A stretch of DNA of 64,000 nt from Mactra quadrangularis (lineage: Eukaryota > Mollusca > Bivalvia > Venerida > Mactridae). The notes under the pieces were generated by a model. That model searched no databases, was not told where the DNA came from, and saw only the letters and a program-made list of their open reading frames with translations. Below are positions 7,256 to 57,887 of this stretch, one piece after another (position 1 is the first letter of the stretch; the number at the start of each line of letters is the position of its first letter). The stretch spans positions 35,725,380 through 35,789,379 of the forward strand of contig CM046303.1 in NCBI GenBank assembly GCA_025267735.1, in the 5' to 3' direction. The translations under genes and the position numbers were made by a program.

Positions 7256-7482
7256 GTTTAGATGAGAGATGTCCAATAGATTGGTCAATGTATGAGTCTG
7301 TATCAAAAGAGAAAGCCTTGATAAAATGTCTACTAGAAAGATATAAAAACTACACAACAGTAGGGCGTCCTGTAACCAACACATCTGATATGATAACTGT
7401 AGAGTTTGGTCTTAGTTTGATTCAAATTATGGATGTTGATGAAAAGAACCAAGTACTTGAGACAAATGTCTGGTTTACTTAC
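7256..7482 (+). CDS. nAChR subunit exon: N-terminal ligand-binding region, through loop D
   Basis: First recognisable exon of a nicotinic acetylcholine receptor subunit, a pentameric ligand-gated channel of the plasma membrane. The acceptor TTTACAG precedes 7256. The exon opens with two bases completing a codon (phase 1) and reads 75 codons to the donor GTAAGT at 7483, ending in phase 0. It contains the family signatures [34 protein letters not shown] and NVWF; the Trp of NVWF is the loop-D aromatic. Two N-glycosylation sequons are visible (NYT, NTS). The frame is open from the acceptor, so the internal Met at 7288 is not the start. The signal peptide must lie on an upstream exon I could not identify, perhaps outside the window. 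The vertebrate 45-nt exon 3 appears fused here with exon 2 (from memory of vertebrate gene structure). Confidence 0.93.
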
Positions 7483-23745: not shown

Positions 23746-23843
23746 CTTATGGTACATTTCAAAATAAATTAAATATCCTAATTTTATAATGGCATGCAAG
23801 TTGAATATTCCTGACGTAGGTTAAATAAATACACATAACAAGA

Positions 23844-31651: not shown

Positions 31652-31953
31652 GTAATGTATATTATGTTGTATACTGTCTTTCTTCATTTTTTTTTATTTT
31701 TTTTTATTTTTTTTTGTAATGTATATATGTTGTATACTGTCTTTCTTCATTTTTTTTCATTTTTTTGTAATGTATATATGTTGTATACTGTCTTTCTTCA
31801 TTTTTTTTCATTTTTTTGTAATGTATATATGTTGTATACTGTCTTTCTTCATTTTTTTTCATTTTTTTGTAATGTATATATGTTGTATACTGTCTTTCTT
31901 CATTTTTTTTTATTTTTTTGTAATGTATATATGTTGTATACTGTCTTTCTTCA
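31652..31953. repeat. Minisatellite, 51-bp unit x 6
   Basis: GTAATGTATATATGTTGTAT begins at 31652 (variant), 31716, 31767, 31818, 31869 and 31920. Spacing is 51 bp after the first unit, which carries an expanded T tract. The two overlapping frames of 144 and 170 codons are repeat translations (Phe, Tyr, Cys rich), not genes. Confidence 0.95.
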
Positions 31954-33989: not shown

Positions 33990-34180
33990 TATGAGCAGTG
34001 GCCCAGTGGTAGTACGCTCGCTTATGGGTCGAGAGGTCCATGGTTCAAACCCTTCCATAGACTCTACTTATTTCCTTGAATGCACTCAATCCAGTCGTAA
34101 TTGGGAACTGTGATGGGTCACCTGCATGAAGGAGATTTCAAAAAGTAGGCTGAACAATGAACTGACGTTAATCTGCACAA
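33990..34180 (+). repeat. tRNA-derived SINE
   Basis: TGGCCCAGTGGTAGTACGC (A box) and GGTTCAAACC (B box) are 30-odd bases apart, followed by ~110 bp of SINE-like body. It lies about 160 bp upstream of the loop-A exon. Confidence 0.6.
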
Positions 34181-34338
34181 TAACTTTTTTTAAATATAAC
34201 GTGATGTAGCCGATTGGCAAAGAATATAATATATCTGTACAGTGACAGTAACATAAGGTTTATCAAATCCTCAACATGAATTGTTGGTAGTTCGCCAAAT
34301 AAAGTAAATAATTTGTTTTACTTTGTTTTGCATTTCAG

Positions 34339-34448
34339 CAATGGAAAGACGCATTATTGAGATGGGACCCTGCGGAATTTGACGGCTTAGAAAAAATAAT
34401 GGTTCCGCCAGAAACTGTCTGGATCCCCGATATTGTATTATATAATTT
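34339..34448 (+). CDS. nAChR subunit exon: loop A (WIPDIVLYN)
   Basis: A 110-nt exon between CATTTCAG and GTAAGT encodes QWKDALLRWDP, then the loop-A signature VPPETVWIPDIVLYN, ending with two bases (TT) of a Phe codon. It enters in phase 0 and leaves in phase 2. The 110-nt length and both phases match the conserved exon 4 of vertebrate nAChR genes (from memory). The loop-A Trp-x-Pro-Asp and the following Tyr-Asn are intact. The TT is completed by the first base of each of the three downstream alternative exons (T, C or C), always giving Phe and so YNFAD. This supports all three being partners of this one exon. Confidence 0.96.
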
Positions 34449-34928
34449 GTAAGTACAAAATTTAAATTAAATATCTCTATAGCATTTAAATTTAATCATA
34501 GAAGATGTCTGTTTTCAGTACGCCTAGCACTGTCACAAAGTCCGTTCAATTCAGTTAAGTCTTTGCAGTTAAGAGAAGGATTTTACACGTACTTAGAGTT
34601 AGTAGACAATCCCTTTTAAAACACTAGTCTCAAGACAAGAGACATATTCTTTAGTAGTGTTTAAGTTAATTGAAATATATATTAACTTACCGTGACTTTA
34701 ATGATGCGTTTAAGCAACCAGCTACATTTCTTAAAGAGATGTCACAATAACGCTTGAAATAGTTTTTAATGTTATCAATATATGTTTATGACGATCTGAC
34801 TTTAAAGTCGAGTTGTAAATGATGACTGAATGAAACTTCTCTATGATCTAGGACCATGAGTTTAAGCTTATTTTATGCCATTTTTATGTGGGAAATAAAC
34901 TGCCAACGTAAGTGTTTAATACAAGTTA

Positions 34929-35340
34929 ATCCAAAGGCCGCTTTGCCCACTGGTACCCTTCCTACTCCAAAAATACCTAATCGGGAGTACTAGAGTACGG
35001 TGGCATTGAGGTGACATGGAGATATATTTAAAATTTACGTTATAATTGACCAATAAGAGTTGTCGAAATTGGCGACCATTTTGTTGGGTGTGCGCACGTA
35101 CAGCTATTGCGTGGCCACGTAAACGTTATTGCATGCGCAGGTAATAGCTACTGCGTGCGCACGTAAAGCTATTACGTGGTCACGTAAACGTTATTGCGTG
35201 CGCACGTAATAGCTACTGCGTGGCCACGTAAACGTTATTGCGTGTGCACGTAAATTATAATATATATCTCCATGTCACCTCTATGCCACCGTACTAGAGG
35301 GCGAAGCGCTAGGAAATTGGCTACATGTCTCGCTTGGCCG
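34929..35340. repeat. Palindromic element interrupted by a nested MITE
   Basis: Left part (34,929-34,995): GGCCGCTTTG, GGTACCCTTC and TACTAGAG. Right part (35,294-35,340): CTAGAGGGCGAAGCGCTAGG followed by CTTGGCCGCG. Together they resemble the foldback at 23,844-23,983 opened up by insertion of the 298-bp element. Confidence 0.65.
34996..35293. mobile_element. 298-bp MITE with CpG-rich palindromic core, 6-bp TSD
   Basis: TIRs TACGGTGGCATTGAGGTGAC (left) and its inverse ending GTCACCTCTATGCCACCGTA (right) extend to about 34 bp with one mismatch. CTAGAG is duplicated at 34990-34995 and 35294-35299. The core (about 35,090-35,265) is an array of ~21-bp units such as GTGGCCACGTAAACGTTATT and GTGCGCACGTAATAGCTA, unusually rich in CpG and ACGT for this AT-rich region. 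Confidence 0.88.
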
Positions 35341-35756
35341 CGATTTTTAAAATGATCGTAAAACAAAACAACAAAAACACTGATAATTTTATTTTAGAAC
35401 TGCAAAAGGGGTTATCTACTTTACTTATGTAAATTTCAATATAATGACTTTTTACTTTAATAATACAACACTTTGTGATTGAACATGTTTATGCTATGTT
35501 TATGATTGATTTGTTTTGGTAATATGTTGATAGCTTACTCTGTATGCATTCGAATCCTATTAAAATTAAGAGCGTTGTTTTTGTTTTTATGAGCAAGGAA
35601 CTTGTTGTTTAGTACCTTAATGCTTAGTACTAGGGGAACTAGGAAGGCTTTAAAGTACATCGTAAATAGATATCAGTTGGTTTACAGTCTAGCTTAAAGT
35701 ACATTGTATTGAACACACTAATAAACCATTTTCTTTATTTGAAACTGTAGATGTCT

Positions 35757-36003
35757 GGTTTGGTTCCGAATTAAAAACACTATATATAGATGTTAGATTT
35801 ATTATTCCGTATATAGTAGTTTTAAATACCAAAATTCAAAAACTTTAGATATTCGTGCATTTTTTAGCTATTCGTGCATAAAATTAGAAGACGGAAAAAT
35901 ATAATTATTTAAATTGGAGAAAAAGGCCTCTAAAAGCTGCCATTTTTGGAAAAAATATACATTATATGTATATACATGTATAGTGTTTTCTACTCGGAAC
36001 CGT
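35757..36003. repeat. Small inverted-repeat element
   Basis: GGTTCCGAATTAAAAACACTATA near 35,760 is matched by inverted TATAGTGTTTTCTACTCGGAACC ending about 36,001. AT-rich interior with no frame. Same termini as the smaller element at 36,152-36,233. Confidence 0.65.
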
Positions 36004-36151
36004 GTCGATCACCTATTTTGAACAAAATCGTGATAAATTTTAAATAAACTAGATAATTATTGTATTATAACGTAACCTTAGAAATCCGACACCTTTAGGA
36101 CCGAATAGCGTTTCAAATTTTCTCATTTGTGATATGTATAATCATAGGCAG

Positions 36152-36233
36152 CCGGCTCGGTTCCTCGTCTTAAACACTATAGATACATATGTATATAAAA
36201 ACTTTAGTGTTTTTGACTCGGAACCGTTCCGGC
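36152..36233. repeat. Short inverted-repeat element
   Basis: CCGGCTCGGTTCCTCGTC...AAACACTA faces TAGTGTTTTTGACTCGGAAC ...CCGG around ~25 bases. Shares terminal sequence with 35,757-36,003 and looks like an internally deleted relative. Confidence 0.65.
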
Positions 36234-36532
36234 CGACTACCAGTGAATCGAGAAAATTGTCTGGAAATAAAAGCACCTGTGCGGCATATTCATATAAAAT
36301 CGCACTATGATATGATAACAGAAATAATACCGACTTACGACGAAAAGAGTGCGTACGATTGTGGATAATGCGGAAACAAGAGCTAACCATGATAATGGAG
36401 TCTGTGCAATCTGTAAATAAGGTCTCGTAACGGATTTTCGTCGTAATACGTACTAAAGTTTGTCACATTTTTTGTAAGCTTTAATTTCATTATATTTAAA
36501 ATGGTCGTATTTCTAGGGTTGCCTTGTATTTG

Positions 36533-36616
36533 AATATCGCAGGTTTAGCGCAAACGGTCGTAACTAACTCTTTTCTTATATTGAGTTACGACCATTTTTG
36601 CTAAACCCGCGATATA
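36533..36616. repeat. 84-bp hairpin
   Basis: ATATCGCAGGTTTAGCGCAA continuing ACGGTCGTAACTAACTC pairs with GAGTTACGACCATTTTTGC continuing TAAACCCGCGATAT around a ~12-base loop. It lies ~540 bp upstream of alternative exon A. Confidence 0.8.
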
Positions 36617-37155
36617 ATTGTGCATTAATATACTTACGTATATTATTTCATGTTAGGCCAATCTCATTCAAACCAAACAACTTAAAGCTCCACCGAATTT
36701 CCCACTACAGTGGTAGCTTTTACAGAGTCTGATTTCAATGAGATAATTGTTGATATATTTATTGACCCTGCAAGGTGAATACCGTACAATATATAACTAT
36801 AGATCAAAGCTGGAATCTATTCATGAATCTATTCATGAGGCTGCAATCTCTAAAACTCTGCTTACTTCACTCTGACTTCTAGCATAAATACTTTGCACAC
36901 TGCTTTACACATTAACCTACTAATCTGATAACCATGATTTTATTCAACTTTTAGTTAGTTTTAAAAATGCTATTTCAACACTTATTAAGATGGCTGTTTG
37001 GAATTATAATTTTTCTGCATTTTCAAGACATTTTTACTAGAGATGATTATTTACACTGTCTAATGAAAAATGTATATATGTTATATATGTATTTTTGTTT
37101 GTTGTACTAACTGTTACACGAAGCTATTTTTTAATCACCCATCACATTCTTATAG

Positions 37156-37613
37156 TGCCGATTCCCGTCTGGAAGAACAGCGTAATGCTCTTGTCAACGT
37201 CTTCCATGACGGTTTAGTAATGTGGGTTCCTCAAGCTATTCTTCGAAGTACCTGTGCATTCAACACTTTATTCTTCCCTTTTGATGAGAATGAATGTCAT
37301 CTTAAGTTTGGGTCTTGGACGCACGATGGCAGCAAACTGGATCTCCGATTCTTTAATAACATAGAGAAATTTTTAGTGGAAGATTTTGTGCCTGGAAATG
37401 AATGGGACTTAGTTGGTAACCGTGGAGAGAGAAATGTTAAAATATATGAATGCTGCAAGGATACACCATATCTGGATCTCAAGTTTTACATTCTACTGAA
37501 GAGGAAAACTGCTTTCTACAGTTTCATTTTACTCCTGCCATGTACTCTTTTATCCTGCCTGACTTTGGTCATATTTTGGGTACCTCCGGAATCTCCAGCA
37601 AAACTCATGCTTG
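37156..37613 (+). CDS. nAChR alternative exon A: loop E to start of M2
   Basis: 458 nt, acceptor TTCTTATAG, donor GTGAGA (weaker than the other two). It completes Phe of YNFAD and encodes 152 further residues: loop E (WVPQAILRSTC), Cys-loop C-x13-C (CAFNTLFFPFDENEC), loop B (SWTHDG), loop F, loop C with vicinal cysteines (YECCKDTPY), M1 (TAFYSFILLLPCTLLSCLTL) and PPESPAKLMLG entering M2. The vicinal Cys pair makes this an alpha-type, agonist-binding subunit. SPAK replaces the cation-channel SGEK: Pro at -2' and Ala at -1' instead of Glu, as in anion-selective Cys-loop channels. The pore 2' residue is Met. Unlike exons B and C, no N-glycosylation sequon lies in the RFFNNIEKF region. Confidence 0.95.
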
Positions 37614-37848
37614 GTGAGAAAACATGCACACATATGTAAAGACGTTTCTTCACCCTTAAATTTAGAATACATTTTAACTTTACCTATACGTATACATGTT
37701 TGCATCTTCCTCTTATACATAACGTATGCATGCACATGTCACGTTAGAGTAATGCATATAAATTAAGTCTATATTAAGTCATAGCTTCTAGCTGCTGCCA
37801 CGTGTAGATTATTTCACGATAAATTGGTTCATTACAGAGTCCTTTTAT

Positions 37849-38213
37849 TAGGGACTTTAGTCAGTTATCTTTCCCTGATAAAATCTGAAGCAATTCAATT
37901 GGTAAGTAGGTCCTTACAGTTGGAATCCTCGGATTTTATCATTGAGTTCCTATGTAAGGATAACAAAATATTTCATCTTATATCTTTCTTATTAATGGCG
38001 ATATTAACAGAAGTGATGAAATTTAGATAGTTCTTTACCCTAAAAATACTTATATTGAATTCTAAACAAATTAAATGATTTACAATAAAGTTATTTAAAA
38101 TTAATTTTGGCAAATTGACATTGAAAAGTAAAGGTAAAATCCGAGAAATCCAACTAATTGGACCTACCCATTTGAAAAGTATACAAGGGGAAATAACTGA
38201 CTAAGGTCCCTTA
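37849..38213. repeat. 365-bp inverted-repeat element just downstream of exon A
   Basis: AGGGACTTTAGTCAGTTAT faces ATAACTGACTAAGGTCCCT, and further in TAAGTAGGTCC...TTGGA...CGGATTTTATC faces GGTAAAATCCGAG...TCCAA...GGACCTACCCA, giving arms of about 95 bp with interruptions. It begins 235 bp after the exon-A donor. Probably a MITE; the strong predicted stem could affect splicing nearby. Confidence 0.8.
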
Positions 38214-40198
38214 TTACAATGTACACTTGTATAAGTAAAGTAAAAGGGTCTCTCTAATTATAAGTAATTAAACAGTAGGACACTATTCCACATGTTAAGG
38301 TCCTTAAACTTTAAGAAAAGTAGAATAGTAGAATCAGATTCTTTATCTATGACCTTTAATTATAAGTAAAGCGACAAAATGACCCTGCACATTTTATTTA
38401 TTCAATTTGTTAACAAATCGAGCCATTAATTGTGATTCTTTAACTTAACAAACCATGTACATATTACTAATGTAATGACAAAACCACTAAACGACTACAA
38501 GTATTTTTGACGTATGAGTAGCAAACTGATCCTTTTACTCAAAGTCACATTAGTAAAAATGATGTTAGAACCAGAACATTAGGTATCAGCATATATGAAC
38601 CAAATACTGTAAATTTAAGTAAAACACTTAAAGTCGCCTCGACTACATTCGAAAAACCCCTTTGATAACTAAATTTGCTCATCAATTGACATAGGAATGC
38701 GTGTTTTGATTTGTTAAAATGATGCCTGACGATCGAGCATGTTAACTTCACCCCATACAGTACGTTATTAACGAAATAATTTGAACAAAGCTTGATTTGT
38801 TCAGCGTGTAACAGTGCCAAGCAGTTCACTATTTTATGTAATGATATGTTCAAAGTTTGCATGAAAGACACATGAACATGCCCTCCTATCGAAGGGTATT
38901 TGTTATATGACATATTTTTCTGGAATTCAAATTAAGGGTACAAGCACAATCTAGTCACACAAATTTAGCATATTTCGTGTTTTAGCAATAATGTGTAAAA
39001 CCTAGTTTTCGTACCTGATTAATCTCTCTCTTTGCTTATGGCTATTTGGAGGGTCTGAGCATTTGCCTGTCGCTGTTCCTAATAGGTTTTCAGATTCTCT
39101 TTCGTCAATGCGGGTCGGAAATCTAAATATTGAACTTTAAATAACATAAAGAAAATATAATAACACTTACTTACCTTTTTGATTTATGAGGCGGTTTGTT
39201 TTGGTTTCTACTTGAATTTGTGGCGTTCGGTCACGTGCTATACCAACCCTTCAAAATACCATATACGGTGTAACCATCTTAATACCAGACACGTGACATT
39301 AGAGCAATACTTACCGTAACACTAAACAGTACCAACTGATCATTTACTGTTTGTTTTTGTAAACAATGCGTTTATAAACAATTTTCGATTTCTCATAACC
39401 AATATTTGGGTGTAAAGCAAATCAACAAGTTTAGTTAGTTTGAAGATGTTTTATTGACGTATTATCACAATAAATAACCAATGGATATATGCTAGGTAGA
39501 CCTTCCACATTTATATGGACAATTTATGGAAAATAAAAAAATAAAAAAAATCCATCATCCAATTCGCCTATTGAATGGACACGTCCAAAATGAAAGTACA
39601 TTGTACATAATATGCATGATATTTAACTGATGCAAATGTACAAGAAAACAATTTTTTATCCCAATACTTATAATTCCTCAGAAAGCATGAACTATTAAAT
39701 AATGATTTAGAATCTACGATTTGACCAAATCATTTTCTAAGTCATTTTAAAAGCTTGAATCGAGACAATTATATTTAAATGCACAATATAATGTACATTG
39801 CAATTTTGAACACAATATTTTAAATATGTAGCATGTTGTATGTCAATGAACCTTATTATAATTTATGCACATACGGGTAAGGGAATACAAGTAGCAATTA
39901 TTGAATTATTCATACGGAGGAACATTTTATATCGGGGCCTACATAGGAACCCGCAGATTTAGCATGTTTAAAATGATGTAGGAGGGGGTAGGGGACCCAA
40001 CTATTATGGTTTGCGCAACATACATTTTTTATAGACCCCAGAATTTTTGTGGGGTATTTCTTTTTGGGTATACCTATACAATACCTTTTATACGTTTAAC
40101 AGACTGTATATAGATATAGGTTCATATCATTCTGTTCTGGGGTTTGGTTACTATATATTTTGATATATCAATGAAAATAAGGTCAAAACCAGCTTAAA
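38214..40198. other. Intron sequence, nothing recognised
   Basis: A 122-codon minus-strand frame at 38,545-38,913 has no recognisable domain, no splice logic and AT-driven composition. No other feature seen. Confidence 0.45.
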
Positions 40199-41755
40199 TA
40201 TATACTAATGGACAAAAGTCTTGTCCGGTCTTCAAAAACCATAATATCTCTTTTGTTTGTTATTGCCCACTCATAAATGTGGTATCGTTAGAAAGAGAAT
40301 GTTATTATGCATTGAATAAAAAAAGAATTGTGAAATTTGAGCCAGTTCTGTCGGTACAGTAATGTGTTGAAAATTGACATTGAGGGTTTGCAAGTAACAA
40401 ATGATTGCATCGACGCAGTTTTTAAACGAAACATTTTTTTCAATAGTGTGTGTGACCCCCATTAACCCGAATGAGTTCAGTGATCCTTCTACGCATCGAT
40501 GCTACAAGTTTGCGAAGGAATCTAGCCGGAATTTGGTCCCATTCTTGAACAATAGCGTCACGTAATTGATGCACGTTGTACACGTTCCGAGCCCTAATCT
40601 TCCGTTTCATGAAGTCCCAAACGTGTTCGATTGGGTTCATGTCAGGCGATAATGCCGGCCATGGCAATGTTTGGACATTGTTGGCCAACAGGAAGTTTTG
40701 AGTGAACCTTGCAACATGGGGCCGGTTTTTGTCCTGCTGCAGGACTGTGCCTGGATGGGCAATAAGGAAGGGCAACACAATCGGTTGCAACACTTGGTCG
40801 ACGTAACGTTTAGCCACGACCACGTCCTCGACCATATTCAAGGAATACAAGTTGGGTTTTATGATGATGTGTAAACCCTGCCTAAACAATGACGCTCGGC
40901 CCACCCCAGCGGTCATTTTCAATGACACAGGCGTCCGCTAACCTCTCACCAGGGCGTCGATAGACGTCCGTCGCCTGAATCAATGTTAAATTTACAATCA
41001 TCCGTAAACAGAATGTTTTGCCATTGATTTTAAGCGCCACCTTTGATGACGTAACGCCCATGCTACCCGTAGACGCCTGTGATTGGGAGTTAATATTGCT
41101 CCACGATATGGCCGTCGGCAACATAACCCGGCTGCCTTGAGACGTCGCCGTACCGTTTTGGCACTAATGCGAGGCCGATGACGACCAGCTGTGTTTCGTG
41201 CCGTGTCATTTGGGGCGGCAAAACGATTACGTAAGTGGGTAAGCTGAATATGCCTGTCCTGACGTAACGTCGTTTCGTGCGGCCGTCCGGAACGTGAAAA
41301 TCTGCCACGGAGCCTTGCGTTGCGAATTTTGTACGTAACCGACTAATGGTTTTCTCATTAACTCCGAATTGACGGGCTACATGTGCAGCAGTTGCATCAG
41401 TCTCAAGTTGGCCTATAGCGCGCGCACGCTGCTCATTTGAAAGCTTCATTTAAGAATAAAATTCAATATTTTATTAAAATATTCTGATGTCTTCCGATTG
41501 GGATATCGTTACACAAGAGAATAAGGTAAATCATTTTATCAAACTAGGCGCAACACTGTATACACGAGAGAGCACGTGAATAACGTGGCCGGAAGTGTAT
41601 CTCCTTTGTTAGAGCAAGGACGACAGTCAAAATTTAGAAACCGGTTTGAAAAACAGGCGATATAAAGTAGGCTAAATTTCAAGATTGTAATTTCACGTGT
41701 TGAAAAGATATTATGGAAAACCATACCGGACAAGACTTTTGTCCATTAGTATATA
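40199..41755 (-). mobile_element. Complete Tc1-like transposon, 1.56 kb, inactive
   Basis: Perfect ~30-bp terminal inverted repeats carry TACTAATGGACAAAAGTCTTG at 40199-40228 and its reverse complement at 41726-41755, with TA-rich edges fitting TA-target insertion. A single-gene transposase on the minus strand fills the interior (separate entry). The TIRs themselves are partly palindromic. It lies between alternative exons A and B, antisense to the nAChR gene. Near-perfect TIRs suggest a fairly recent insertion despite the broken gene. Confidence 0.95.
40440..41449 (-). pseudogene. Tc1-type DD34E transposase, frameshifted
   Basis: The start at 41449 gives MKLSNEQRARAIGQLE and a helix-turn-helix (HVARQFGVNEKTISRLRTKF). 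The frame is then lost near 41,300 and conserved pieces continue in other frames. The second Asp region (TDDCKFN) falls about 40,990-41,010. The C-terminal half (from about 40,905 to the stop near 40,440) reads QQDKNRPHVARF and LSPDMNPIEHVWDFMKRK. Between the Asp of QQD and the Glu of NPIE I count 34 residues, the DD34E spacing of Tc1 elements. At least two frameshifts make it non-functional. The enzyme would bind the TIRs and cut and paste the element. Confidence 0.92.
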
Positions 41756-43501
41756 TACATTTTATTATCGTGTCTTGACATTTAAACATTATTTTACATA
41801 ATTATGTAGAAAATGTCTGCTTTATGAAAAGTTTAAAGTATTACTACTACTAGTTCTTATCTCAGTCAATTTTGACAAATAACCCGTTGAGAAGCCCATT
41901 GAACGTTGCACTACAGCAGACTTGGATACAATTTTAATTAAATCATACATTTTAAAACGATATGATTTGATGGCAAAGTAATGTGACGACCAGCAAAGAT
42001 TGCATCTTTTGATGCGACATTGGCTTCATAGGATAGAGTTTTACTGGATTAAGATCCACTACTAAACATTTCTACGTCCAAAATATAGTGTCTTTTATTT
42101 ACCTAACGGTGATCTTAGATAAATACTTTGCTGGGACAAGTGGCATAATTCTCCCCAAACATGTGTAAGTTAAGTACATTTCCCTGTTTTTGGAAATCTG
42201 CGACATGACAACAAGCTAACAAAGGCATTCACTGAAGCAGATATGAAAACATTAAGAAAACAAGAAATATCATTGAAAAGATATTCGGCGCTGTGCAGGG
42301 TTAACCGTTTACAAGACTTTATTGGGACCCGCATATTGAAAATTTGGGACAGTATACTGAACTTCATTTCGGGACAACCAATGGTATATACATTTATCCA
42401 TTTCTCAATACCGCTAGTGAATTTCATTTAACAAACAGAAATGGTAGAACAAATTGTATTGGTTAAAATACAGGTCAAAAGGTGGCTTAGACAGATGTAC
42501 CGGAAAAAAACATAAAATACAATTTAATATTGCAATGTGTTGCTCTGATGTGACTAGATATTAATTTGCAGCTAGTAGAGTATTAGTTATAATTTTTAGA
42601 AACATAGAAATACTACACCCTGGCTACGTGTGTGTGTTTGCTTTTAACGTAGAAACCCTTGCACAATGGCTGCTTGTGTTTGTGTGCCTTTAACCTAGAA
42701 TACCTTGCACTTCTGGTCATCTGTAAGTTAGTAATGTGCCTAATCGAAACTATTCATACTATAATTATAGTTTTGTAGCTGATCAAACAGTATTATTAAA
42801 ACTGATGACCCTTTTTGAGATAACGCCATATTGCATTTTTAAAAAGCAGTAACAAATTTCTAAAACAATTTTAATGCTATTTTAAACATATAGCTTGACT
42901 TAAACTTACGCGTATCCTTTTGCTTGAAATTCGTAAAATGTTTCTTTTTTTTCGATGAAAATTACTGTGAAGTTTATTTTCAATGATCATTGTGGTTGTA
43001 ATTTTTGTTTATTCGTAGTTCTCACGTGTAACGTTTTGTCGTGGTTTTTTTTATCACGAACCCTCATTTTTTTACATTTTGTTTTAATTAGCATTTTCTT
43101 TATAGGCGAAACTTGCTCATTATCATCCTTTGAATCTAGCTATCTTGTCAAGCGTTTCATTTCATCTGAACGAACTGGTCCTAATGGATTAATTTATCAT
43201 TTAAGGTAATATATTCATCATTTATTGTAAGATAGGTCTAAAATAAATATAACATTAATTTGCAATACAATAAATTTCCCGGGAATCCATGGGATTGAAT
43301 TTAGTGTTTCGAGGCACAGGTACGTCGATGATCAGCGAAAGAGGAGTTACTAGATATGCTTCAAGCACAACACTGGGGAAATGGTCACTCACACTATTCA
43401 GACATATAGGTTTTATGTTCTTGTTATGCCCGCCTTATTTTGGTATGTGTTATACTGTACATAACACGGTGCAAATCATGTATGCGTTTATTTGGTTGTA
43501 G
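41756..43501. other. Intron sequence before alternative exon B
   Basis: No gene seen. A segment at 43,106-43,205 has an AG/GT-bounded open frame (34 codons between TTCTTTATAG and GTAATA) but no similarity to nAChR or any family I know. Frames at 42,170-42,431 are random. Confidence 0.4.
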
Positions 43502-43959
43502 CGCCGACTCACGACTTACCGAACAGCGTCCAGCATTGATTAATGTATTCAGCGACGGGACGATACTTTGGATGCCACAAGCAATCCTTAGAAGCACATG
43601 TGCATTCAAATCAAGATACTTTCCATTCGATCAAACTGAATGCCATTTAAAGTTTGGTTCCTGGACCCACGATGGATCAAAAATGAATCTCACATTCTTT
43701 GAAAATCTGGAAAAGTTCATGGTAGAGGATTTCATAGAAGGAAACGAATGGAAGCTGATAGGAAATCGCGGTGAACGAAATGTTAATTACTACGAATGCT
43801 GTGCTGACACGCCTTATTTAGACTTGAAGTTTTTTGTTCACTTAAAGAGAAGAACGGCGTTCTATAGTTTTATCTTACTCTTGCCTTGTGCATTGTTATC
43901 ATGCTTAACCTTGATTATATTCTGGGTCCCTCCGGAATCTCCAGCGAAACTACAACTTG
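43502..43959 (+). CDS. nAChR alternative exon B: loop E to start of M2
   Basis: 458 nt, identical in length and phase to exon A. By hand count 34 of 152 residues differ from A (about 78% identity). Landmarks: WMPQAILRSTC (loop E), CAFKSRYFPFDQTEC (Cys-loop), SWTHDG (loop B), YYECCADTPY (loop C), TAFYSFILLLPCALLSCLTL (M1), PPESPAKLQLG (start of M2, 2' Gln). It carries an NLT sequon at MNLTFFEN, absent from A. The acceptor region (TTTATTTGGTTGTAG) is purine-interrupted and looks the weakest of the three; the donor is consensus GTAAGT. Most A/B differences fall in loop E, the Cys-loop tip, the loop F region and beside loop C, the parts that set agonist affinity and coupling. Confidence 0.95.
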
Positions 43960-46227
43960 GTAAGTCAACTTCGCAGCACCATATGCCTGCTAAAAGTAAC
44001 AAAGTTATAATTATCTGGAATTTCATGCAAACCTTTTTGGTTCATAAAATGGAGCTACTTTGTATATAAATATTACGTGTATTGTTAGATTTTATAAGAA
44101 TTTCAAGGCACTCTGAACTATGGGCATCCATTTCTGAGATAATTTTTAATATGCTCAAACTGTCAGGAAATTATTCGTGCTAGTAGGACTGTTTAAGTTA
44201 CTCGTAGGACTTGACGTGTTTTGATTATTAATTTTATATACCCTAGCGTTTTAGTTGTTGTGCATGTTTTTATTATTTTTGATTGTTCTTATAATTTTGG
44301 ATGAGTTTAAACACCTGTTAAAAATTTTTTAAATACGAATTAGTCAGTTAACGTTGTTCCTCCAAAGACAAACATGTGTTAACATAATGTATAATGCTTG
44401 ATAAGAATATCATAAAAAATTTATTGTCAAAATTCTTATTTAAAAAAACAACAACAACAATCTGTTAATATATTCCATCAGTTTTGGTATTTTGTCGTTA
44501 AAAAGACATAAGCATCAGCTGAAAATGAACATTACGTTCACGGTTGGGACTTGTAGATTTTATTCTTATACATGTATGTAATGGTATCATATTTGTACAA
44601 ATTGAATTGTAGCTATCATTCATTCTTTTATTTGCACGCAGTTAACATAATTAAAGTACGCAATTAAAATTGTGTTCAAGCGAAACGTTAAAAGTCGACA
44701 TTTATTTCTTATTTATTTCATGTAATTTCATCAACGCATTTATTTATATACAACTCTCGATTATAAGCATCTAAACGTAGCAAGATTCAAGTCGTTCAAC
44801 ATTTTGAAATGTTATTTTATTTCTTGTTAATGTCTAGAAATATTTAATGAAAATGGTAATCTGATTAAGATTATGCTTTAAAAAAATTTAAAACGCTCTC
44901 TATATATTTTTGTACAATGGAACATCCTTAATTCAATAAGAAGCGTTAACTTACATTTATATTAATGGATTTATATACCAATTGTAAGCTTACTAACAAA
45001 CAGCATAAAAAAACTCGAACCATTTTTGTGACCAAACGAAGTAGAATTTCGTTGCAAGCATATGCATTTTATTCATACTAGTCGTGTTATCCCTCCTGCC
45101 AATAGAAAGTTTATTAGTTTTGCACACGTATATTTTCAGTAGTTGTTATATGTAGTTGTTTGTTTTTAATATATTTTGTGTATTTGTGGCCCATCAATGA
45201 TCAAATCCTTACAACCAAAATTGTCCCTCACATTGTCTTCTCCTCTCTCTCTCTTATACCCATCTATATCTCTCGTTGTTTCTATATTCATCTTCTAAAC
45301 AATTTTTATCATGCATCCGACAACTTTCCTTAATTTCGACTTTTTTTAAGTTCACTTTTGTTCCTTCATTTCGTTCATTTAAAACATTACTTGGCAAGTG
45401 TTTGTACTATTAGAGCAAGGAGTAAATGTACAGGAAAAAACTGTGGACATTGCCAGCGTTCCTATGATTCTGTTTTGGCACATGTGAGACTTCATCATAT
45501 CAAACTTGTACCAACATATCAGATGGATGCACAGGGACTTCGATCTCACCGAAACACTGATGCTGGATGTCTAACCAAATGTTACTCGCCGCAAAATGCA
45601 AAAACCAATGTTTTCATGTCATATATTGTTTTTGTACACGTTCACGTTCGTCAGTCACGTGTGTCCAGGCGTCACCACGTTTTGTACATTTATACATGAA
45701 ATGTGAGCATTACTCAACAAAAATGTTATTTTTTGCGACATACATGCTGTGTCACCCTATCATCAAATTAACATTTTAACACCAGCATTCACATTTTTTA
45801 CTTGAGTAGAAATTTCATGTTATCATCTGTTGCCAATTTTTTCATGTTAATTGCTTAGCTTGCTTTAAATTGTTTCTTGCATGAATATTCAGAAAAAAGA
45901 AACGATTTTTTTTTCACGAAATGTTTTAATAACGCACTGATTTTTTTAGATTATTTTTTGTGACTAATCAGTTAAAAACTTCGTATCATTAAAAATGCAA
46001 GAGCATATTTGTCGATAAAAAGCAATGCTAAATTATTTTAGGGAGCTACATTTTAGACCTTTTTATCAATGTGATGGTAACTCCTTAGCCTAAGGAGTTT
46101 CAATTGATTAAATTTTGTATATGCTTTTGTATATGCTATGGTAGACATAAAGATAATTTGGATTTATTTCATAACTTTATTAAATGTTTGGTTTCTACTT
46201 AATATTCCTACTTTAACTGAATCAACC
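43960..46227. other. Intron sequence after exon B, no gene
   Basis: A 113-codon frame at 45,358-45,699 contains a CTGKNCGHCQ...LAHVRLHH string reminiscent of a zinc finger, but the spacing fits no known finger and no splice sites or neighbours support it. Otherwise nothing seen. Confidence 0.4.
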
Positions 46228-46528
46228 CGGGTCGATAGCGCAGTTGGTAGGGCGTCAGAATTTGGAATCTCGTGTCCCAAAGGGGGTACGGGTTTGAATC
46301 CCATCCGGGGAGGTTATACCTTCCATGAAAATTTGCCAATAATGTCAATTTCTTCCATTGATTAGATAATATGGAAATGTTTCCGGCCTTGTGGAAGGGT
46401 AGGTTAGTACTGGTTATAGACAAGGGTCCAGGAAAGCTAGTAAGGTGCGCTGGACGCCGTAAAATGACCTAAATTGTGTTGATACGACGTTAAACCCAGC
46501 CAGCCCAAAAAAATACAATAAAAAACCT
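46228..46528 (+). repeat. tRNA-derived SINE, full length
   Basis: The head has A box TAGCGCAGTTGGTAG and B box GGGTTTGAATCC. A ~200-bp body ends in GACGTTAAACCCAGCC followed by an A-rich tail. GTTAAACCC is also the 3' end of the unrelated-headed SINEs at 49.8 and 51.2 kb, as expected if one partner LINE recognises that tail. Confidence 0.8.
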
Positions 46529-46559
46529 TACTGAATTAATAACATTTAAATATATATTT

Positions 46560-46880
46560 TGAAATTAATGCTATGTTACCCCAAAGCAGTTACATATCAA
46601 TACTTATTTTATTCACTAATATTTGGTACTCCCCAACCTTATTTAAAATTCAATTCAATAAATACGCCAGTATATTTAGTTATAAAGGCTATGTTTGGGT
46701 TAACCCCTAAGGAATAACATGTCAATACTTGTTTTCTTAAATAATTTTGGTACTCCCCAACCTAACTTAAATTCAATTCAATAAATGCCGAGTATATTTT
46801 TAATAATTTATGAAGACTATGCTGGGGGTTTGTAGGTAACATATCAGTTCTCATTTACTTTATATAGTTTGTTCTACTAG
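46560..46880. repeat. Degenerate tandem repeat, ~125 bp x 2.5
   Basis: TTTGGTACTCCCCAACCTTA-like segments near 46,622 and 46,746 are each followed by AATTCAATTCAATAAAT and AGTATATTT and preceded by CATRTCAATACTTRTTTT. A third partial copy starts near 46,820. Confidence 0.75.
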
Positions 46881-48039
46881 TAAATATTTCATCCGGTACA
46901 ACAAATCTTACGCGAATAACTTGTTTTACCAATATACATGCATTTCATTTGTTATATAAAATTGTCCAAAATCTCCAAAACTGAAGCCCATTGTTAATTT
47001 GCTTGGCTCTACTCATTATTACCAAATTGATAAAATACACATTTGACCGCAAAAACGAAGTACATTTCTTGTTTCAATACACCTTCGTGAAGATTTATAA
47101 AGCAATGGAGGCATATCATTGTCGATAAGTCATTTGATAATATTAATTGTTCTCACAAAGTTCCAAAATTATTTTTTATTCTATACAAAAATGTGAAACA
47201 ATCATTTAGTCTTTAGCGTTCTTACGACCCGTAATAGTATTGAAGGCCATTCACTTCAATCAACTAAATTATTTTGGGGGAGGGACTTCCTTATAATCAC
47301 AATAAATGTTTTTCATTGACATATCTCCAAAGAATTCAGCTTGTTGTCAAATCCAACACCTATCATAGTGCTCTGCCAAACTACTTTCGTGTGAATAACA
47401 AATACACACTCTCAAAACTCGAATAGAAAACTATAAATATAGTCAAAACTTTGAAGCGTAGATAAATTTTCCAACTGGGATAAGATAACGTGCTTAAATA
47501 ATTAGCAATAATGTTATTACATCAAGAGTGTACCATGTTCCATCTAGGTTTTATTTCGTGTTTGTTGATTATATTTGTATTTCAATTTCCACATTTTATG
47601 ATATTTTTATATAATATTATTTGCATGAAATGTTTCACTTGAATCTGTTCACACTATTTTGTATAATCATCATCATCATTATTATCATCATCACGTGTGT
47701 AAGCATCATTATGTTCAACTAATATGCCTTGCAAATTCACCATATCTCATTCACTATCAACTTTGCTTAATAATTTTAACTCATCCAGCAGAGTTCGGTT
47801 GCTTTTCGTTCGTCGCAAATAGCAATTCAAATAGCAATTCTATATCGCATTGTTCTTGTTCAATACCCACCGTTTTCTATGTATTTTATGTACACACAGA
47901 GAAAATATCTCAGAACATTGTTGTGTATTGGAATCAGTTAATCTTAAATGTGTCAGTTTTTGATGTCTATGAAAACTGTACCGACCAAACCAAGTCTGTT
48001 CAATGCTGATTAATGATTTTCTTCTGCCCCGACTTCTAG
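46881..48039. other. Intron sequence before exon C
   Basis: Nothing supportable apart from a short CAT-rich microsatellite-like patch near 47,665-47,700. The acceptor TTCTTCTGCCCCGACTTCTAG at the end is the strongest pyrimidine tract among the three alternative exons. Confidence 0.5.
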
Positions 48040-48497
48040 CGCTGATGACAGACTACGTGAACAAAGACAAGCCCTCGTCAATGTTTACGCTAATGGAGAC
48101 ATTCTGTGGATACCACAAGCCATCTTGAGAAGTTCTTGTGGATTTGAAACCAAATATTTTCCATTTGATACCCAGTCATGTTATCTACAATTTGGATCAT
48201 GGACGCATGATGGTACTTATATGGATCTGCAGTTCTTTCAGAACACTTCAAGATTTATGGTTGATGATTATATAAAAAGTAACGAATGGGATATATTAAT
48301 TAACCGTGGTGAAAGGAACGTTAAATTATACGAATGCTGTAAAAATGTGCCTTATTTAGACTTGAAATTCCATTTGACTGTAAAAAGACGTGTGGCCTTC
48401 TACACTTTTATATTAATCATGCCTTGTGCGTTATTGACTTGTCTAACATTAGTGATATTCTGGGTTCCTCCCGAAGCTCCTGCCAAACTTAGCCTGG
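48040..48497 (+). CDS. nAChR alternative exon C: loop E to start of M2
   Basis: 458 nt, same phases as A and B but more diverged. Landmarks: WIPQAILRSSC, Cys-loop CGFETKYFPFDTQSC, SWTHDG, loop C LYECCKNVPY, M1 VAFYTFILIMPCALLTCLTL, then PPEAPAKLSLG, so the 2' pore residue is Ser and the -1' Ala is kept. It has an NTS sequon at FFQNTSRF, close to the NLT of exon B. Relative to A and B it has YANGD for the FHDG/FSDG turn, and NVPY instead of DTPY after the vicinal cysteines, directly in the agonist pocket. Strong acceptor and consensus GTAAGT donor. The internal Met at 48125 is not a start; the frame is open from the acceptor. Confidence 0.95.
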
Positions 48498-49462
48498 GTA
48501 AGTATAATGTCGTTGCTCTAATGCGCTCTCTACTCTCTTCAGTCTATAAAAATATTCAACGAATTCATGTTATTGCAAAGCACCTTTCGGTATTACGCTT
48601 TAAGTACATTGCTTGTTTATGAATAGTTATTGACTGCGAGAAATTGAACATGTTTTTACACTGGAAAATGTTGGAAGCTCTCTCTTAACACTTGGGTGAT
48701 GGACGATCACTATTATCTGCATTTCATTATACTAAACGTGGAAATATTGCACAGTCACCTGCCCAAATATGCGCTTGTATGTTAAAACCGCTAATTAATC
48801 TTAGTTAATTTATAAGTGCAATTGTTGCAACCATCGAACAAAAATTCACGGAAGCATTTGACAAAATGGCATCATTCATTATTTTTACAATTTCTTTTCT
48901 TTTTCCTTTCAACTATTAGTTTGTTTTATATATTGTTTGGTATATTTTGTTCTTTGCTTGGTTTACGAGATCACGTTTTTCTTTTAATTCTAGCAGTGTG
49001 AACCCTTGTGTTAACTGAACCTTTTATTATTTTTTAGTTTATCCCAGATTTTTACAGTAGCACTATTTTATCTAAAATATGTCATGAGCACCCGTACTTT
49101 CTAAATATGCACAAAAATCGCATGTTATGATCATAAACAAATAATTTTTAAGTACTTTTATTATACATTTTTTAATCGGAGAGTGATAGACATTTGATGG
49201 TTTAATATTTAACCGCACTTAAGTATTAAGAAAAAATACAGGTTTAAATGAAAGTTATCCAGAAAGTGTTCTTGTTATTTGCAACTTTTAAATCGTTCTT
49301 TTAAATTATAATATCATTCAAAATGATCTTCTATGTAATTTTAAATTAATTAAGTTTACAAATGTATTTTCATAATTTCTATATTAATGTTTCTTAAAAA
49401 ACTGTTTTATTTTAAAGCGACTCACTGTACAAAGATAGTTATTATGACGGCGTATTTTTCAG
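48498..49462. other. Intron between exon C and the M2 exon
   Basis: 965 bp, the shortest intron of the cluster. No repeat or alternative exon recognised. Pyrimidine-rich stretch ends GTATTTTTCAG at 49462. Confidence 0.6.
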
Positions 49463-49549
49463 GAATGAATATTTTTGTGGCGTTTTTCGTCTTGCTGCTG
49501 TTACTTTCTGAGTCAACACCGAAGGCGGCAGAGTCCATACCTCTTATTG
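49463..49549 (+). CDS. nAChR subunit exon: M2 pore helix
   Basis: 87 nt, acceptor TATTTTTCAG, donor GTAAGT. Entry phase 1 completes the Gly codon (G|GA) opened by each alternative exon; exit phase 1. It encodes GMNIFVAFFVLLLLLSESTP and then KAAESIPLIG, aligning to the M2 helix and M2-M3 loop (alpha7: ...SDSVPLIG) with Glu at 20' and Pro at 23'. By this alignment 4' is Gly, 6' Asn, 9' Val and 13' Val. The usual 9' Leu hydrophobic gate is replaced by Val and the helix is unusually rich in Phe and Leu. The 87-nt size matches, from memory, the M2 exon of vertebrate CHRNA7. It is common to all three isoforms. Confidence 0.9.
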
Positions 49550-49837
49550 GTAAGTAATATAAAGTAACATGTATTTTATAGGTATCGTTCCCTCTTAAAG
49601 TCCCAGGTATATTGGAAACTGTAAAGGAGTATATGTGTATCATAGTGTGAATAGAAATCCATGAAAATTAAGCATAAAACGCAAATTCATTTTAATTTAG
49701 AAGAACTTATAATGGACATTCTAGATTTTGTAGTCAACAATTTAACAAAAAACACATATTCTACAAAACGTTCCCGAAACACACAAGATGATACCAAATA
49801 ATAACAGAGGCATATTTGTTCGAGCAATTTCATTTTT
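49550..49837. other. Start of intron after the M2 exon
   Basis: No M3 exon or other feature was found. Confidence 0.5.
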
Positions 49838-50125
49838 TGTTGGGTTTAACGCCGTAGCAACACGTTGTATAGGTCATATAACTGCGGTCAGTCAACCTAC
49901 TTAATCCTCCTGGATGGCTAAATCTCTTGATTAAGCTGTTAACCAACTACAAAGCGAATACTTTCGTCAGTGACATAATCAAAAATCATTTGTAGGAGGG
50001 AGAATGGCCGTAAAAATAATTTCATGACTAAGCATCACGAAAGTATGCCACGCCCGGGAATCGAACCCACGACCCCTCGATCAGTAGACTTGCGTGCTAC
50101 CAACCAAGCTAGCAGGGCGGCTTTT
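49838..50125 (-). repeat. SINE with tRNA-Lys-like head (copy 1)
   Basis: Minus strand. The head near 50,125 reads GCTAGCTTGGTTGGTAGCA then GGGTCGTGGGTTCGATTCCC. The body runs down to GTTAAACCCAACAAAAAA at about 49,838. It aligns over its length with 51,187-51,513. Confidence 0.88.
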
Positions 50126-51186
50126 TTTAAGCAAATTATATCAATATAACTTGAACTGGGTTGAGCATGCCCTTAACTTGTAATGAATTGTAAGATATTA
50201 GCTTTTTTTGAAATTGTGGTTAAGATATCTATTGTAATCATTAAATGTTTTTTCCAAAAATATTTCTTCTAAAAATAACCTCCAACAGAAGTTTTCCCGA
50301 TAATGATAAAATGGCCACTAAAAGTCTAAGAATTGTGATTTAGAATGTACAAAATGTAGAAAATATCAATATATAAATAACATTGTATTAACAAATATTC
50401 CTATTAGAACATATTACTCCAAAAATATAGAAATAAAAACATAACAACTAGGCTGATTTCTGATAAGTTTTGGTAGCACTTCGCCTTAATATATGTGATT
50501 TTTCTTAATACCTTCTTTAACGTCTGTAAATATTCTATAAGCCAATTTTAAATTGAGTCATTAAGAGCTAGTTCATATAATTTGACTTTAATTGTTTTAA
50601 TTAATCCCAACTATTTTAAAGGTTATTCTACATCATGCTGAAGACTGGCGCAAGTGGCTTTATAGATAGGCCCACTTTCGGATCGTGGTTTTGCTTTGTA
50701 AAGTGCATGGTTAGCCTAATGTACGCCTTTTACATGTTTATCTAGTTTAGACTGTAGATTTAGAATATGTAAATAACCTACGATGTGTCAAATGCCGCTC
50801 GTTGAATATAATGCAATGTACAGTTTGCTGGAGGAATAGTCTAGTTTCTCTGCTTTTGGGGGAATCTTAAGTTGATAGTATTGCGGTATTGCGACATATA
50901 GACTTGTAACATATAGTACATAAACCTTGCAGAACTAAGGCAAGTGTCAGTGGCAATGCACGTATCAAGCAACGGAGTCAGCAAACGAAATTGTTAATAA
51001 AAAAGGTTAACTAAACTCTAGAATATTATGCACTAATTTATTTGGCTTAATGTCTTATAAATATGCTGATAGTTAATAATTTTACACACTACGATTTTTT
51101 GCCGTCAAATACTAATCTTCTAATTCGTGAAGATTGCTAATAGCTCTCAGTTTGGCCTCAAAAATAATATTAGCCATTACATTCAA
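50126..51186. other. No gene or repeat recognised
   Basis: AT-rich intron sequence with no supportable feature. Confidence 0.5.
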
Positions 51187-51513
51187 TTTTGTTTGTTTGT
51201 TTGTTTGTTTTGTTGGGTTTAACGCAGTAGCAACACATTGTATAGGTCATATAACGGCGGTCAGTAAACCTACTCACTCCTCCTGGAAAGGCCAAATCTC
51301 TGGATTTAGCTGTTAACCAACTACTAAGCACATACTTTCGTCAGTGACTGACAACTGTCCTACATAATTGATAATCATTGGTAGGAGGGAGAATGGCCGT
51401 AGAAACAATGTCATGACCAAACTCCACGAAAGTATGCCCCGCCCGGGAATCGAACCCACGACCCTTCGATCAGTAGACTTGCGTGCTACCAACTGAGCTA
51501 GCCGGGCGGCTTT
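51187..51513 (-). repeat. SINE with tRNA-Lys-like head (copy 2), (AAAC)n tail
   Basis: Minus strand. The head has GCCCGGCTAGCTCAGTTGGTAG (A box, close to eukaryotic tRNA-Lys GCCCGGCTAGCTCAGTCGG from memory) and GGGTCGTGGGTTCGATTCCC (B box). It ends in GTTAAACCCAACAAAAC and an AAAC-repeat tail (51,187-51,212). The anticodon arm does not fold as a tRNA-Lys. The minus-strand frame through it contains QLVARKSTDRRVVGSIPGRG, the usual mistranslation of such SINE heads. Confidence 0.92.
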
Positions 51514-54500
51514 ACATTCAATTTTGACATTTATAGCAACGGCTGGTCTATCGCACTGATAACTTATGTTTGAACTTGAGAAATAGTTAAAAAATTTCGG
51601 AATAAATGAAACATTGGAACTGGTAAAAAACATCACGGACATAACTGATCAAGTTTGCTCATTTCCCAAATATAAAATCAGTCTAATTTATTAAATACAG
51701 TCAGAATGTTCACTCTTAACGCATACAATTTTAGAACAAAAGAATGTTCTTATATTGATGTGACGACCAAAGTGAAGTTAAATGCTTTTACTAAAACTAT
51801 TCCTTTGTCGAGGTGTCAAATTAATTTTCAAGTTTGTAGTCATTAATTTACAGAAACAGTTTCAGTGACATTTTGTTGTTCCCATAAACTGGTTAATTAT
51901 TTGAATGCTGCAAGTTTACTTGTAGCCGTTGTTAGTCACAAACTTAACGCTGCTGTAAACAAATTGGATATATAGAAACACAGTAATAATAGTATACTCA
52001 TAAAACTTTGTTTATCATCCTGTCTTACCAGATGAGACTCCATCGTTACACCATAATTTACTGTTGCCTCTACCGTTTATGTTGCGTTTTTGTCTCAATT
52101 GTTAAAAAAAACTTTATTAAATTTAACTATCTTTGCATCGTTCACTTTAGTAAATTTACTGTTTCATTTATGTAACAATTTCACGCAAACTCCATCTGCA
52201 CTAAAATTAACTCATATTTAATTCAATTTACCATGTATGACATAGTCGTTTATTTAATAATCCGAGTATTAAAGTAATAATAACGTCAATAACATAAACA
52301 AGACATACACATAAAATACACTTACCTTTTGTACACGTGTTATTCCCTTAAAAACAAACACCAATGTAACAAAATATTCATAGACAAGTAATATAATATG
52401 CAAAAATAGTTTCGTGCTATTTCTATACTTAAGACTCTAAAGGTTATTACGAAAACAATCTTTGATAAGAAAATGAAACATTTACATAAATGTAAACATT
52501 AGTACAGACATCATATACACTTAGACTTGCATTAAATGTGTCTCAATTTTATCAGGCATTTATAAGCATTGTAGATACAAATGTTTCATTCTGGAACTGT
52601 TTCATACAGTTATTTACACACGTAGCAGATTAAGCAGAAAAAATACTAGACGATGCACTTACTGGATTTATTTACTTGATTTGAGGTTCGTTTCATCGCG
52701 TTTGATGCTTTGTATGCAATATTCTGATCAACACTAACAAAAAAATCTAAAACTACTCGTTATTACTAATAGAAAAAAATCAAGGATGTTGGATATTAAC
52801 TTGCATTTAATGTAGCTCAAGTTTTGATCATTATTTATTGCAAAAACACTGACCTTTTTGTCCTCGGAGTCAATGTAATGCATTGAACAAAAAGATAACT
52901 TTTGACAATGTAAATCAAGTACTCTGACAAAAATTAAATCGTTTTTGGATAAACTTTAAGTAAAAATTGAAATATATATGACGTCACTAAGTAGCATCGA
53001 TTTTTTGACAGTTGCATGCTGATGGCATAATTTCATCTACTTATTTTGTCTTTTACCTTTGTCATTGCGTTGAAGCCAAACGTCATTGACTCAGGAAAAG
53101 AAGTCAGAACCGACAGATAATGTCATAAAAGGTTAAAATGACGTACATTGACTGAAGAAATGAAATGAATTTTAAAAAGTGGCTAAAAAGAAATCTGGCA
53201 ATCCTGTCATTATATCATATCAATGCAAAATACAAAATGACATATCATATTGAAATAAGAGCACTTCAGTAATAATTTATGACTAATGACGCCGTTAAAT
53301 GCCAAAGCATGGACATGATTGACAAAATGTTATAAACAGAACAATAATTACAAAATAACAAAAATCATGGCGATTGTTGCTATGGTAATCGTTGAAGGAA
53401 AATAACACTTTTGTAATCATATTCTAAGTAAGTTATCATACTCGGTGTCACATTTATGAAATTTTTCATCTATCATCTTTTCTGGGTTTATCAGATTTGT
53501 ATTTATCAAATATTTGTGTCTGTTCTGCAATTAGACAATATTGGTACTTTTTGTATACTCGGTGACAAACTAGAACAGAAGGTCATTTAATGTTTTGTTT
53601 TGTTTTTACTTTTATTTATGCAACAGTTCGACTAATTTAAGCCTACAACATCTCTGTGTCTGATAAACTATTCTTATGAAATTACACATCTGATTAATGA
53701 TTAGTTTATTGCCCACAAACACGGTGTAATGCTATTTTGTATAAGTTCGTAGGGGTCATTTTGGTTTTTTAAGCGGATTAAATACAAGATAATGAACGAG
53801 ATAATGTGTTGGTTGCCGCTAGATTTGACTTTTTTCAGTGTAAGTATTGGGTGTTTTTATGTAGGTTGTATGAAACATACTCTTGATACAATAAGTGCTG
53901 ATGTCAAACTTGACAACAAGTGTAATAGAACGATGGTTTTCAGTGTAAGATTAGATTACTGAATGGTGTAAAAAGTCTCTGTATATTGAGTACATGTATA
54001 TGACATTTAACCATTTAATTATTCAGCTTGTTTCTATTACTTGTTCGTGAACTAGTATCCCTTGGAGGCTTTACGTCAATCGCACAGTTTTTGTCGGGCG
54101 TTGCCATTCCTTATTTTATTCAGTGTCAAATATAAAAGGAAGAAAACGACCGATATAATTTGATGTTATATTGTGGAAACACTTGATGATACGATGAAAA
54201 TAAACAAAGAAAGCCCGCATGTAGTGTTTGAGGTAAATCAAATTCAGGATAACACTGAGAGGCAGAGGCGCGAAGATTGTCAGAATTTTTATATATTTAG
54301 AAGGATATATAAAGCTCGTACAAAGACGATTTTATTGAGTGCGTTTCGTGGTTTTAATAGAATGTATAGACTTTTACTTATACAACCGGTAGGCTTTTTG
54401 TGAAAACCCGCTGTTCATGACTCCCGCATCTTAAACAGCAATTTACTTTCCACTTTAAAAATAGAAAACTAAAATGACTTTTTTCAAATTCTAAGATTAA

Positions 54501-57802: not shown

Positions 57803-57887
57803 GAGCTGAACAATTCTCTGTTCAAAAAAATATACTGGTCCAAAATGATAGTATACTTTCATCCTCGTGACAAGAAACAATTGAAAC

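Follow-up and report, generated by a model that had tools for sequence, protein, structure and literature searches.

In insects, exon 4 of the nicotinic acetylcholine receptor (nAChR) gene alpha4 occurs as two tandem alternatives (4 and 4′, in Drosophila and Tribolium), which cover loop E and residues around the Cys-loop (PMC2064938); the alpha6 gene carries the mutually exclusive exons 3a/3b and 8a/8b/8c, with three versions of exon 8 in most species and duplications that predate the insect orders (PMC1919356), where exon 3 encodes loop D (45 bp in Tuta absoluta; PMC5111602) and exon 8 encodes TM2 and the TM2–TM3 loop (PMC8505678). Among anion channels, exons 3 and 6 of insect RDL and exon 3 of GluCl are described with two or three alternative exons (PMC2064938), and in the nicotinic chloride channels of Lymnaea and schistosomes a Pro-Ala pair takes the place of the Glu found in cation channels (PMC4055736). 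In bivalves, nAChR diversity has been ascribed to retroposition and tandem gene duplication, with 99–217 genes in five species (PMC6896357). Here, an nAChR subunit gene is described from a stretch of 64,000 nucleotides of the clam Mactra quadrangularis (GenBank assembly GCA_025267735.1, contig CM046303.1, positions 35,725,380 to 35,789,379, forward strand), referred to below as the window. Three homologous exons, A, B and C, lie in tandem in this gene, and with a probability of roughly 90% we read the locus as one clam gene for an alpha-like nAChR subunit of the anion (Pro-Ala) type, in which the triplet would be spliced in a mutually exclusive manner. The parts of the gene are given by position in the window; the 2′ residue is exon residue 151, aligned with the Thr of GEKITL in the nicotinic alpha-4 chain 5kxi, which we take to be the 2′ position in the usual numbering of the second membrane segment, M2.

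7256..7482, plus strand: constitutive exon, mature N-terminus up to just 5′ of loop D; 227 nt, phase 0 at its end; placed by tblastn, colinear with Mactra antiquata protein P0111 to residue 98.
34339..34448, plus strand: constitutive loop D/loop A exon; 110 nt, phase 0 in and phase 2 out; reads QWKDALL...DIVLYN followed by TT.
34449..49462, plus strand: stretch from the loop-A donor to the M2 acceptor; holds A, B and C and introns of 2707, 5888, 4080 and 965 nt, all GT-AG.
37156..37613, plus strand: alternative exon A; 458 nt, donor GTGAGA, 2′ residue Met.
43502..43959, plus strand: alternative exon B; 458 nt, donor GTAAGT, 2′ residue Gln.
48040..48497, plus strand: alternative exon C; 458 nt, donor GTAAGT, 2′ residue Ser.
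49463..49549, plus strand: constitutive M2 exon; 87 nt, phase 1 in and out; reads MNIFVAFFVLLLLLSESTPKAAESIPLI.

Each of the three alternative exons is preceded by AG, followed by GT and spanned by one open frame of 152 codons, so that the three homologous 458-nt exons of equal phase proposed in the first-pass annotation of this DNA stand at the positions given there. Each consists of 1 nt, 152 codons and 1 nt, flanked by a phase-2 and a phase-1 intron; the final TT of the loop-A exon is completed to a Phe codon by the first base of any of A, B or C, and the terminal G of each joins the GA that opens the M2 exon to give Gly. By eye, all splice sites of the alternatives are GTRAG donors and AG acceptors, with GTGAG after A and GTAAG after B and C. 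Splices containing none of the exons, or AB, AC, BC or ABC, were all found to shift the frame and reach a stop, as had been claimed for none or two; skipped or doubled products would thus carry early stop codons.

The flanking exons were sought by tblastn with 109 relative proteins (plus-strand matches of at least 24 bits, with the three alternative-exon regions set aside), which returned one loop-D, one loop-A and one M2 exon in the window and elsewhere in it noise of 24–31 bits at a few places. No second loop-A or M2 exon was found within the 64 kb, in agreement with the earlier claim that these neighbours have no extra copies, and separate complete genes for each copy, which would have spoken against a single gene, did not appear in the window. 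Neither the M3–M4 part nor a signal-peptide exon was found within the window by tblastn of relatives; pattern searches of the window for M3, M4 and loop D returned apparent noise only, and a Pfam scan of whole read-through frames (20000–34449 and 49400–64000) recovered no receptor domain, these frames being so diluted that the loop-A exon was missed too. The same scan gave one unrelated match, below its own cut-off.

Mutual tblastn of A, B and C yields E values of 1e-74 to 1e-84, against a next best match in the window of E 1.8 on either strand, which excludes chance likeness; no fourth copy of the exon was found in the window on either strand by this search. The encoded proteins are 65–78% identical (A/B 118/152, A/C 99/152, B/C 100/152), and substitutions at codon positions 1/2/3 number 39/16/87 for A/B, 49/24/94 for A/C and 49/25/83 for B/C, a third-position excess that indicates purifying selection on all three exons. 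When the exons were compared by blastn with 1500 nt on either side, nucleotide likeness ended within about 6 nt of the exon edges, past which there were only matches of 13–30 nt with E of 0.01 or worse. Homologous neighbouring exons of equal length and phase are the mark of a mutually exclusive tandem cluster, and A, B and C are such exons.

Relatives were drawn from protein searches with 109 matches, with 120 listed of 1395 and with 120 listed of 132. Two proteins of Ruditapes philippinarum, isoform X1 (P0112) and isoform X3 (P0113), have 503 residues each and a contig of 321,097 bp; they differ at 51 positions, from 138 to 286, all inside the exon block (136–287), and are identical at all 351 residues outside it. 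The X1 block is 91.4% identical over 152 residues to window exon C, and the X3 block is 82.9% identical to B and 77.0% to A. Although their labels carry different base names (alpha-2-like and alpha-10-like), both the equal contig size and the lack of any difference outside the block point to a single gene, apparently an ortholog with the same exon swap in its C and B versions, and this pattern lends support to the first-pass proposal of one gene with three alternatives. The X3 cluster comprises 7 sequences at 90% identity, and an A-version isoform could therefore be hidden there; none was seen. The 501-residue protein P0111 of Mactra antiquata is colinear with 7256–7482 (to residue 98), 34339–34446 (99–134), exon B (136–287, with 92.8% identity across the 152 residues) and, from 288 on, the M2 exon. 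Among the proteins listed, those of Mactra and Mya carry the B version only.

Many further matches are open frames in unannotated contigs that read through from intron to exon to intron and so expose the splice edges. Outside the window, Ser directly precedes the block in all 14 unspliced class rows that reach the acceptor (A 7, B 4, C 3), and the block is followed by Gly-Glu in 10/10 A rows and by Gly-Lys in 8/8 B and 7/7 C rows; these counts omit spliced or cut-short rows, and in B the same exon is counted twice, as P0014 and P0016. Read from residues and not from codons, the Ser would correspond to an AG + Y acceptor, Gly-Glu to a GTGAR donor and Gly-Lys to a GTAAR donor, consistent with donors in the window of GTGAG for A and of GTAAG for B and for C. 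Judged from equal listed sizes only, P0028 (A) and P0031 (C) apparently lie on one contig of 5,738,529 bp, and P0015 (B) and P0251 (C) on one of 5,414 bp; P0251 is identical to R. philippinarum X1 at 80/80 residues. In Dreissena polymorpha, an A-class exon has been deposited as a stand-alone protein of 163 residues (P0009, DPMN_093317), probably an annotation artefact of the exon cluster. An open frame of a different kind, P0108 (235 aa, longest contig 2129 bp), holds two M2-type exon sequences about 90–100 residues apart (MNIFVAFFVLLLLLSESTPPA... and GMNIFVAFFLLLILLADVTPPA...) and may represent another receptor gene with duplicated exons, here of the M2 type.

The age of the three versions was addressed with a midpoint-rooted tree of 70 rows: the three window exons and 67 of 272 proteins, each at least 61.5% identical to its best window exon, reaching exon residue 150 and covering at least 75 residues. 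The window exons cluster with exons of other clams and not with one another, in classes C (9 rows, support 99/97), B (12 rows, 96/88) and A (11 rows, 92/76). Forcing the three window exons together costs 146 log-likelihood units (p-AU 0.000244), which places the copies before Mactra quadrangularis and rejects a recent, lineage-specific triplication. Classes A and C had been delimited by the 2′ residue, and they match tree branches, a circularity that called for a tree without the last 8 residues; there C (100/98) and B (94/90) are kept, and holding A together costs 0.0003 log-likelihood units. Named members belong to the Venerida (Mactra antiquata, B; Ruditapes philippinarum, B and C) and the Myida (Mya arenaria, B; Dreissena polymorpha, A, at the base of its branch), all within the Imparidentia, and the named oyster, mussel, scallop, pearl oyster, Solemya and gastropod proteins of the trees fall outside the three classes. 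A protein of the unionid Sinanodonta woodiana (P0115, 2′ Gln) stands beside A and B with modest support (88/81). Triplication within heteroconch bivalves, with C splitting first, would be the simplest history. Class counts leave out P0115 and six near-class exons, namely P0026 and P0253 (2′ Val then Gly-Glu, beside C in the tree) and P0013, P0018, P0022 and P0034 (2′ Gln then Gly-Glu, beside A and B); these may be two additional exon lineages, such that other clams carry a different exon set.

As to the identity of the receptor, PF02931 is matched in each alternative exon at 94–96 bits, and PF02932 stays below its cut-off in each, just the beginning of M1–M2 being present. The best structural match is the nicotinic alpha-4 chain 5kxi (E 2.3e-54), and a 13-residue Cys-loop (C-x13-C) and YECC, features of the nicotinic alpha type, are present in A, B and C. 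Pro-Ala-Lys (PAK) precedes M2 in all three and in 70/70 tree rows, aligned to the GEK of alpha-4. The subunit is anion-type by this Pro-Ala motif, as the first-pass annotation had it, and would be predicted to select chloride; a switch of ion selectivity by exon choice was considered and is ruled out, PAK being constant throughout the tree.

Along the block, the Cys-loop spacing, GSWTHDG in loop B, YECC in loop C and PAK are constant across the three window exons, and variation among them falls at 3/10 positions of the block start, 8/20 of loop E, 10/18 of the Cys-loop, 3/12 of loop B, 17/32 of loop F and 5/18 of loop C, and, in the membrane part, at 12/31 of M1 and 2/11 of the linker and M2 start (region limits drawn by eye). 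The block of about 152 residues that each choice would swap has the content first described, taking in loop E, the Cys-loop, loops B, F and C, M1 and the beginning of M2. Twelve positions have a majority residue of at least 80% in every class and differ between classes, and at two of them each class has a residue of its own: position 45, which precedes the second Cys of the Cys-loop by two (Asn 9/10 in A, Thr 10/11 in B and Gln 7/7 in C), and position 151 (Met 11/11, Gln 12/12 and Ser 9/9, in the same order). The cassette thus sets the 2′ pore residue, and its three classes recur in other clams, both of which go beyond the first-pass annotation.

Several observations weigh against mutually exclusive use of three conserved versions. 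The Ruditapes isoforms are known solely as database proteins, their 'isoform X' labels presumably marking automated predictions. No full-length protein of the A version is among the matches listed, and the A class rests on open frames and the stand-alone Dreissena protein of 163 residues; its support of 92/76 is under the starred level, and once the last 8 residues are removed A is no clade in the best tree, where it is nevertheless not rejected (p 0.426). Mya P0114 is 75.7% identical to A and to B alike and is placed in B by the tree only, and the near-class exons with other 2′ residues indicate that the Met/Gln/Ser triad is not general to relatives. Intronic pairing clearly above chance was not seen in the 24 region pairs scanned as set out below, a weak test.

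The exons could instead be what is left of separate receptor genes that once stood in tandem, the flanking exons having been lost from two of them; one copy would then be in use and the others decaying. Bivalve nAChR genes are commonly duplicated in tandem (PMC6896357), and for Mactra and Mya one version only, B in both, is represented among the listed proteins; on the other side, A, B and C are all intact and constrained, the three classes persist in other clams with acceptor and donor at the same places, the window yielded no further loop-A or M2 exon, and in Ruditapes the flanks of the B and C isoforms are identical. Separate tandem genes are accordingly rejected as the main explanation of the locus, and we regard a decaying array as highly improbable.

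Two further proposals concern how the exons are spliced, in one gene. Splicing may not be strictly exclusive, with skipping or double inclusion serving as a regulated off-switch through nonsense-mediated decay: all five skipped or joint products tried carry an early stop, in-frame double inclusion of alpha6 exon 3 is documented in the silkworm (PMC1919356), and reads that join mutually exclusive exons are reported for human clusters with incompatible frames (PMC5740500). No positive sign of such a switch was met here, and it seems unlikely, being in any case compatible, as a minor route, with exclusive choice among A, B and C. That choice might in turn depend on RNA pairings that compete within the introns, as in docking-selector systems, and the length of the introns, all of them GT-AG, does call for some device of another sort than spacing or splice-site type. 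A duplex scan of 6 exon-flank by 4 candidate docking regions (24 pairs, 30 local shuffles each) gave a best pair of z −1.97, with 0/30 shuffles as low, which is not unusual for the best of 24; the shuffles kept composition in 10-nt blocks and not dinucleotides, and most intron sequence lay outside the scan. Docking of this kind is for now a doubtful candidate.

Under exclusive splicing of the triplet, each messenger RNA would carry either A, B or C, and no more than one of them, joined to the lone loop-A exon on its 5′ side and to the lone M2 exon on its 3′ side. Each choice would swap 152 residues, which take in loop E, the Cys-loop, loops B, F and C, M1, the M1–M2 linker, where the selectivity motif lies, and the opening turn of M2. 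The exon phases would act as a filter, since transcripts with none, two or three of the exons would be out of frame and lost. Steric hindrance between exons is rejected, the introns (965–5888 nt) being too long, and so is U2/U12 incompatibility, as there are no mixed splice-site types among the alternatives; another device would be needed, and it may be conjectured that the class-specific donor after A gives that exon a different strength. Because the loop-B Trp, the YxCC of loop C and Pro-Ala-Lys are constant, every version should still bind acetylcholine and pass anions, and because loop E, loop F, the Cys-loop, M1 and the 2′ residue vary, the isoforms should differ in sensitivity to agonists and blockers, in gating and in conductance. 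On this basis the cassette could serve imparidentian clams as a conserved splice switch with three settings, by which one inhibitory chloride channel gated by acetylcholine is retuned through changes in the ligand-binding interface, the coupling loops, M1 and the 2′ residue, such that the splicing state of a neuron would set the pharmacology and conductance of its cholinergic inhibition; the odds for and against this fuller picture appear about equal.

Other elements in the window are of repetitive or mobile character. Tc1/mariner-like transposase remains in several frames (40440–41449, minus strand; PF13358 DDE_3, PF01498 HTH_Tnp_Tc3_2 and PF01527) lie in the intron between A and B, and a transposon has thus landed inside the exon cluster. 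The intron before exon A holds a foldback element (34994–35295) with a 43-nt inverted repeat (88%) around a 22/65-nt tandem array. Downstream, a repeated element occurs in two copies (49835–50124 and 51208–51513) that share blocks of 80, 59 and 152 nt, 89–93% alike; it is tRNA-like by eye, and ARAGORN found no tRNA in it. Minisatellite arrays are present at 3753–4066, 13573–13969 and 31689–31954, with units of 77, 32 and 51 nt, and an open frame of 159 codons (16277–16756, plus strand) resembles by eye the C-terminal end of a retroelement protein, with no Pfam match at E 0.01.

The locus would place receptor diversity within one gene, in a cassette that, between constant flanks, comprises the coupling region, M1, a pore residue and the larger part of the agonist site. 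It offers a natural series of chimeras for tracing pharmacology and conductance to parts of a Cys-loop receptor, and a model in which to study one-at-a-time choice among three exons that lie kilobases apart. Annotation seems to break on the cluster, as in the stand-alone Dreissena protein and in Mactra and Mya, listed as B only.

The nAChRs of Lymnaea and the SmACCs share with the clam subunit an nAChR-like sequence in which Pro-Ala replaces the cation-selecting Glu, and differ from it in that no alternative exon cluster is mentioned in the accessible part of their description (PMC4055736). Among titles in the open-licence literature, the longer result lists being covered in part, no such exon cluster was found for a mollusc. 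The first-pass annotation had likened the block to a comparable region of insect Dalpha6, which does not hold: with exon 3 at loop D and exon 8 at TM2 and the TM2–TM3 loop, the alternative regions of alpha6 barely overlap the clam block and correspond to single exons in the clam (34339–34448 and 49463–49549). RDL exon 6, near loop F, overlaps the block better, whereas exon 3 of RDL and GluCl lies near loop D, and the ligand of these channels is GABA or glutamate. A better overlap than with Dalpha6 is likewise seen for alpha4 exon 4, which also presents tandem alternatives in an nAChR gene; it belongs, however, to an insect gene, has two versions and is described as loop E and Cys-loop only, whereas the clam exon belongs to a molluscan Pro-Ala subunit, has three versions and extends to loops B, F and C, M1 and the start of M2. 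To our knowledge, no pentameric receptor cassette as large has been reported. In the clam cassette, a single 458-nt unit present in three versions, the regions that correspond to alpha4 exon 4 and RDL exon 6 are united with loops B and C, M1 and the opening turn of M2.

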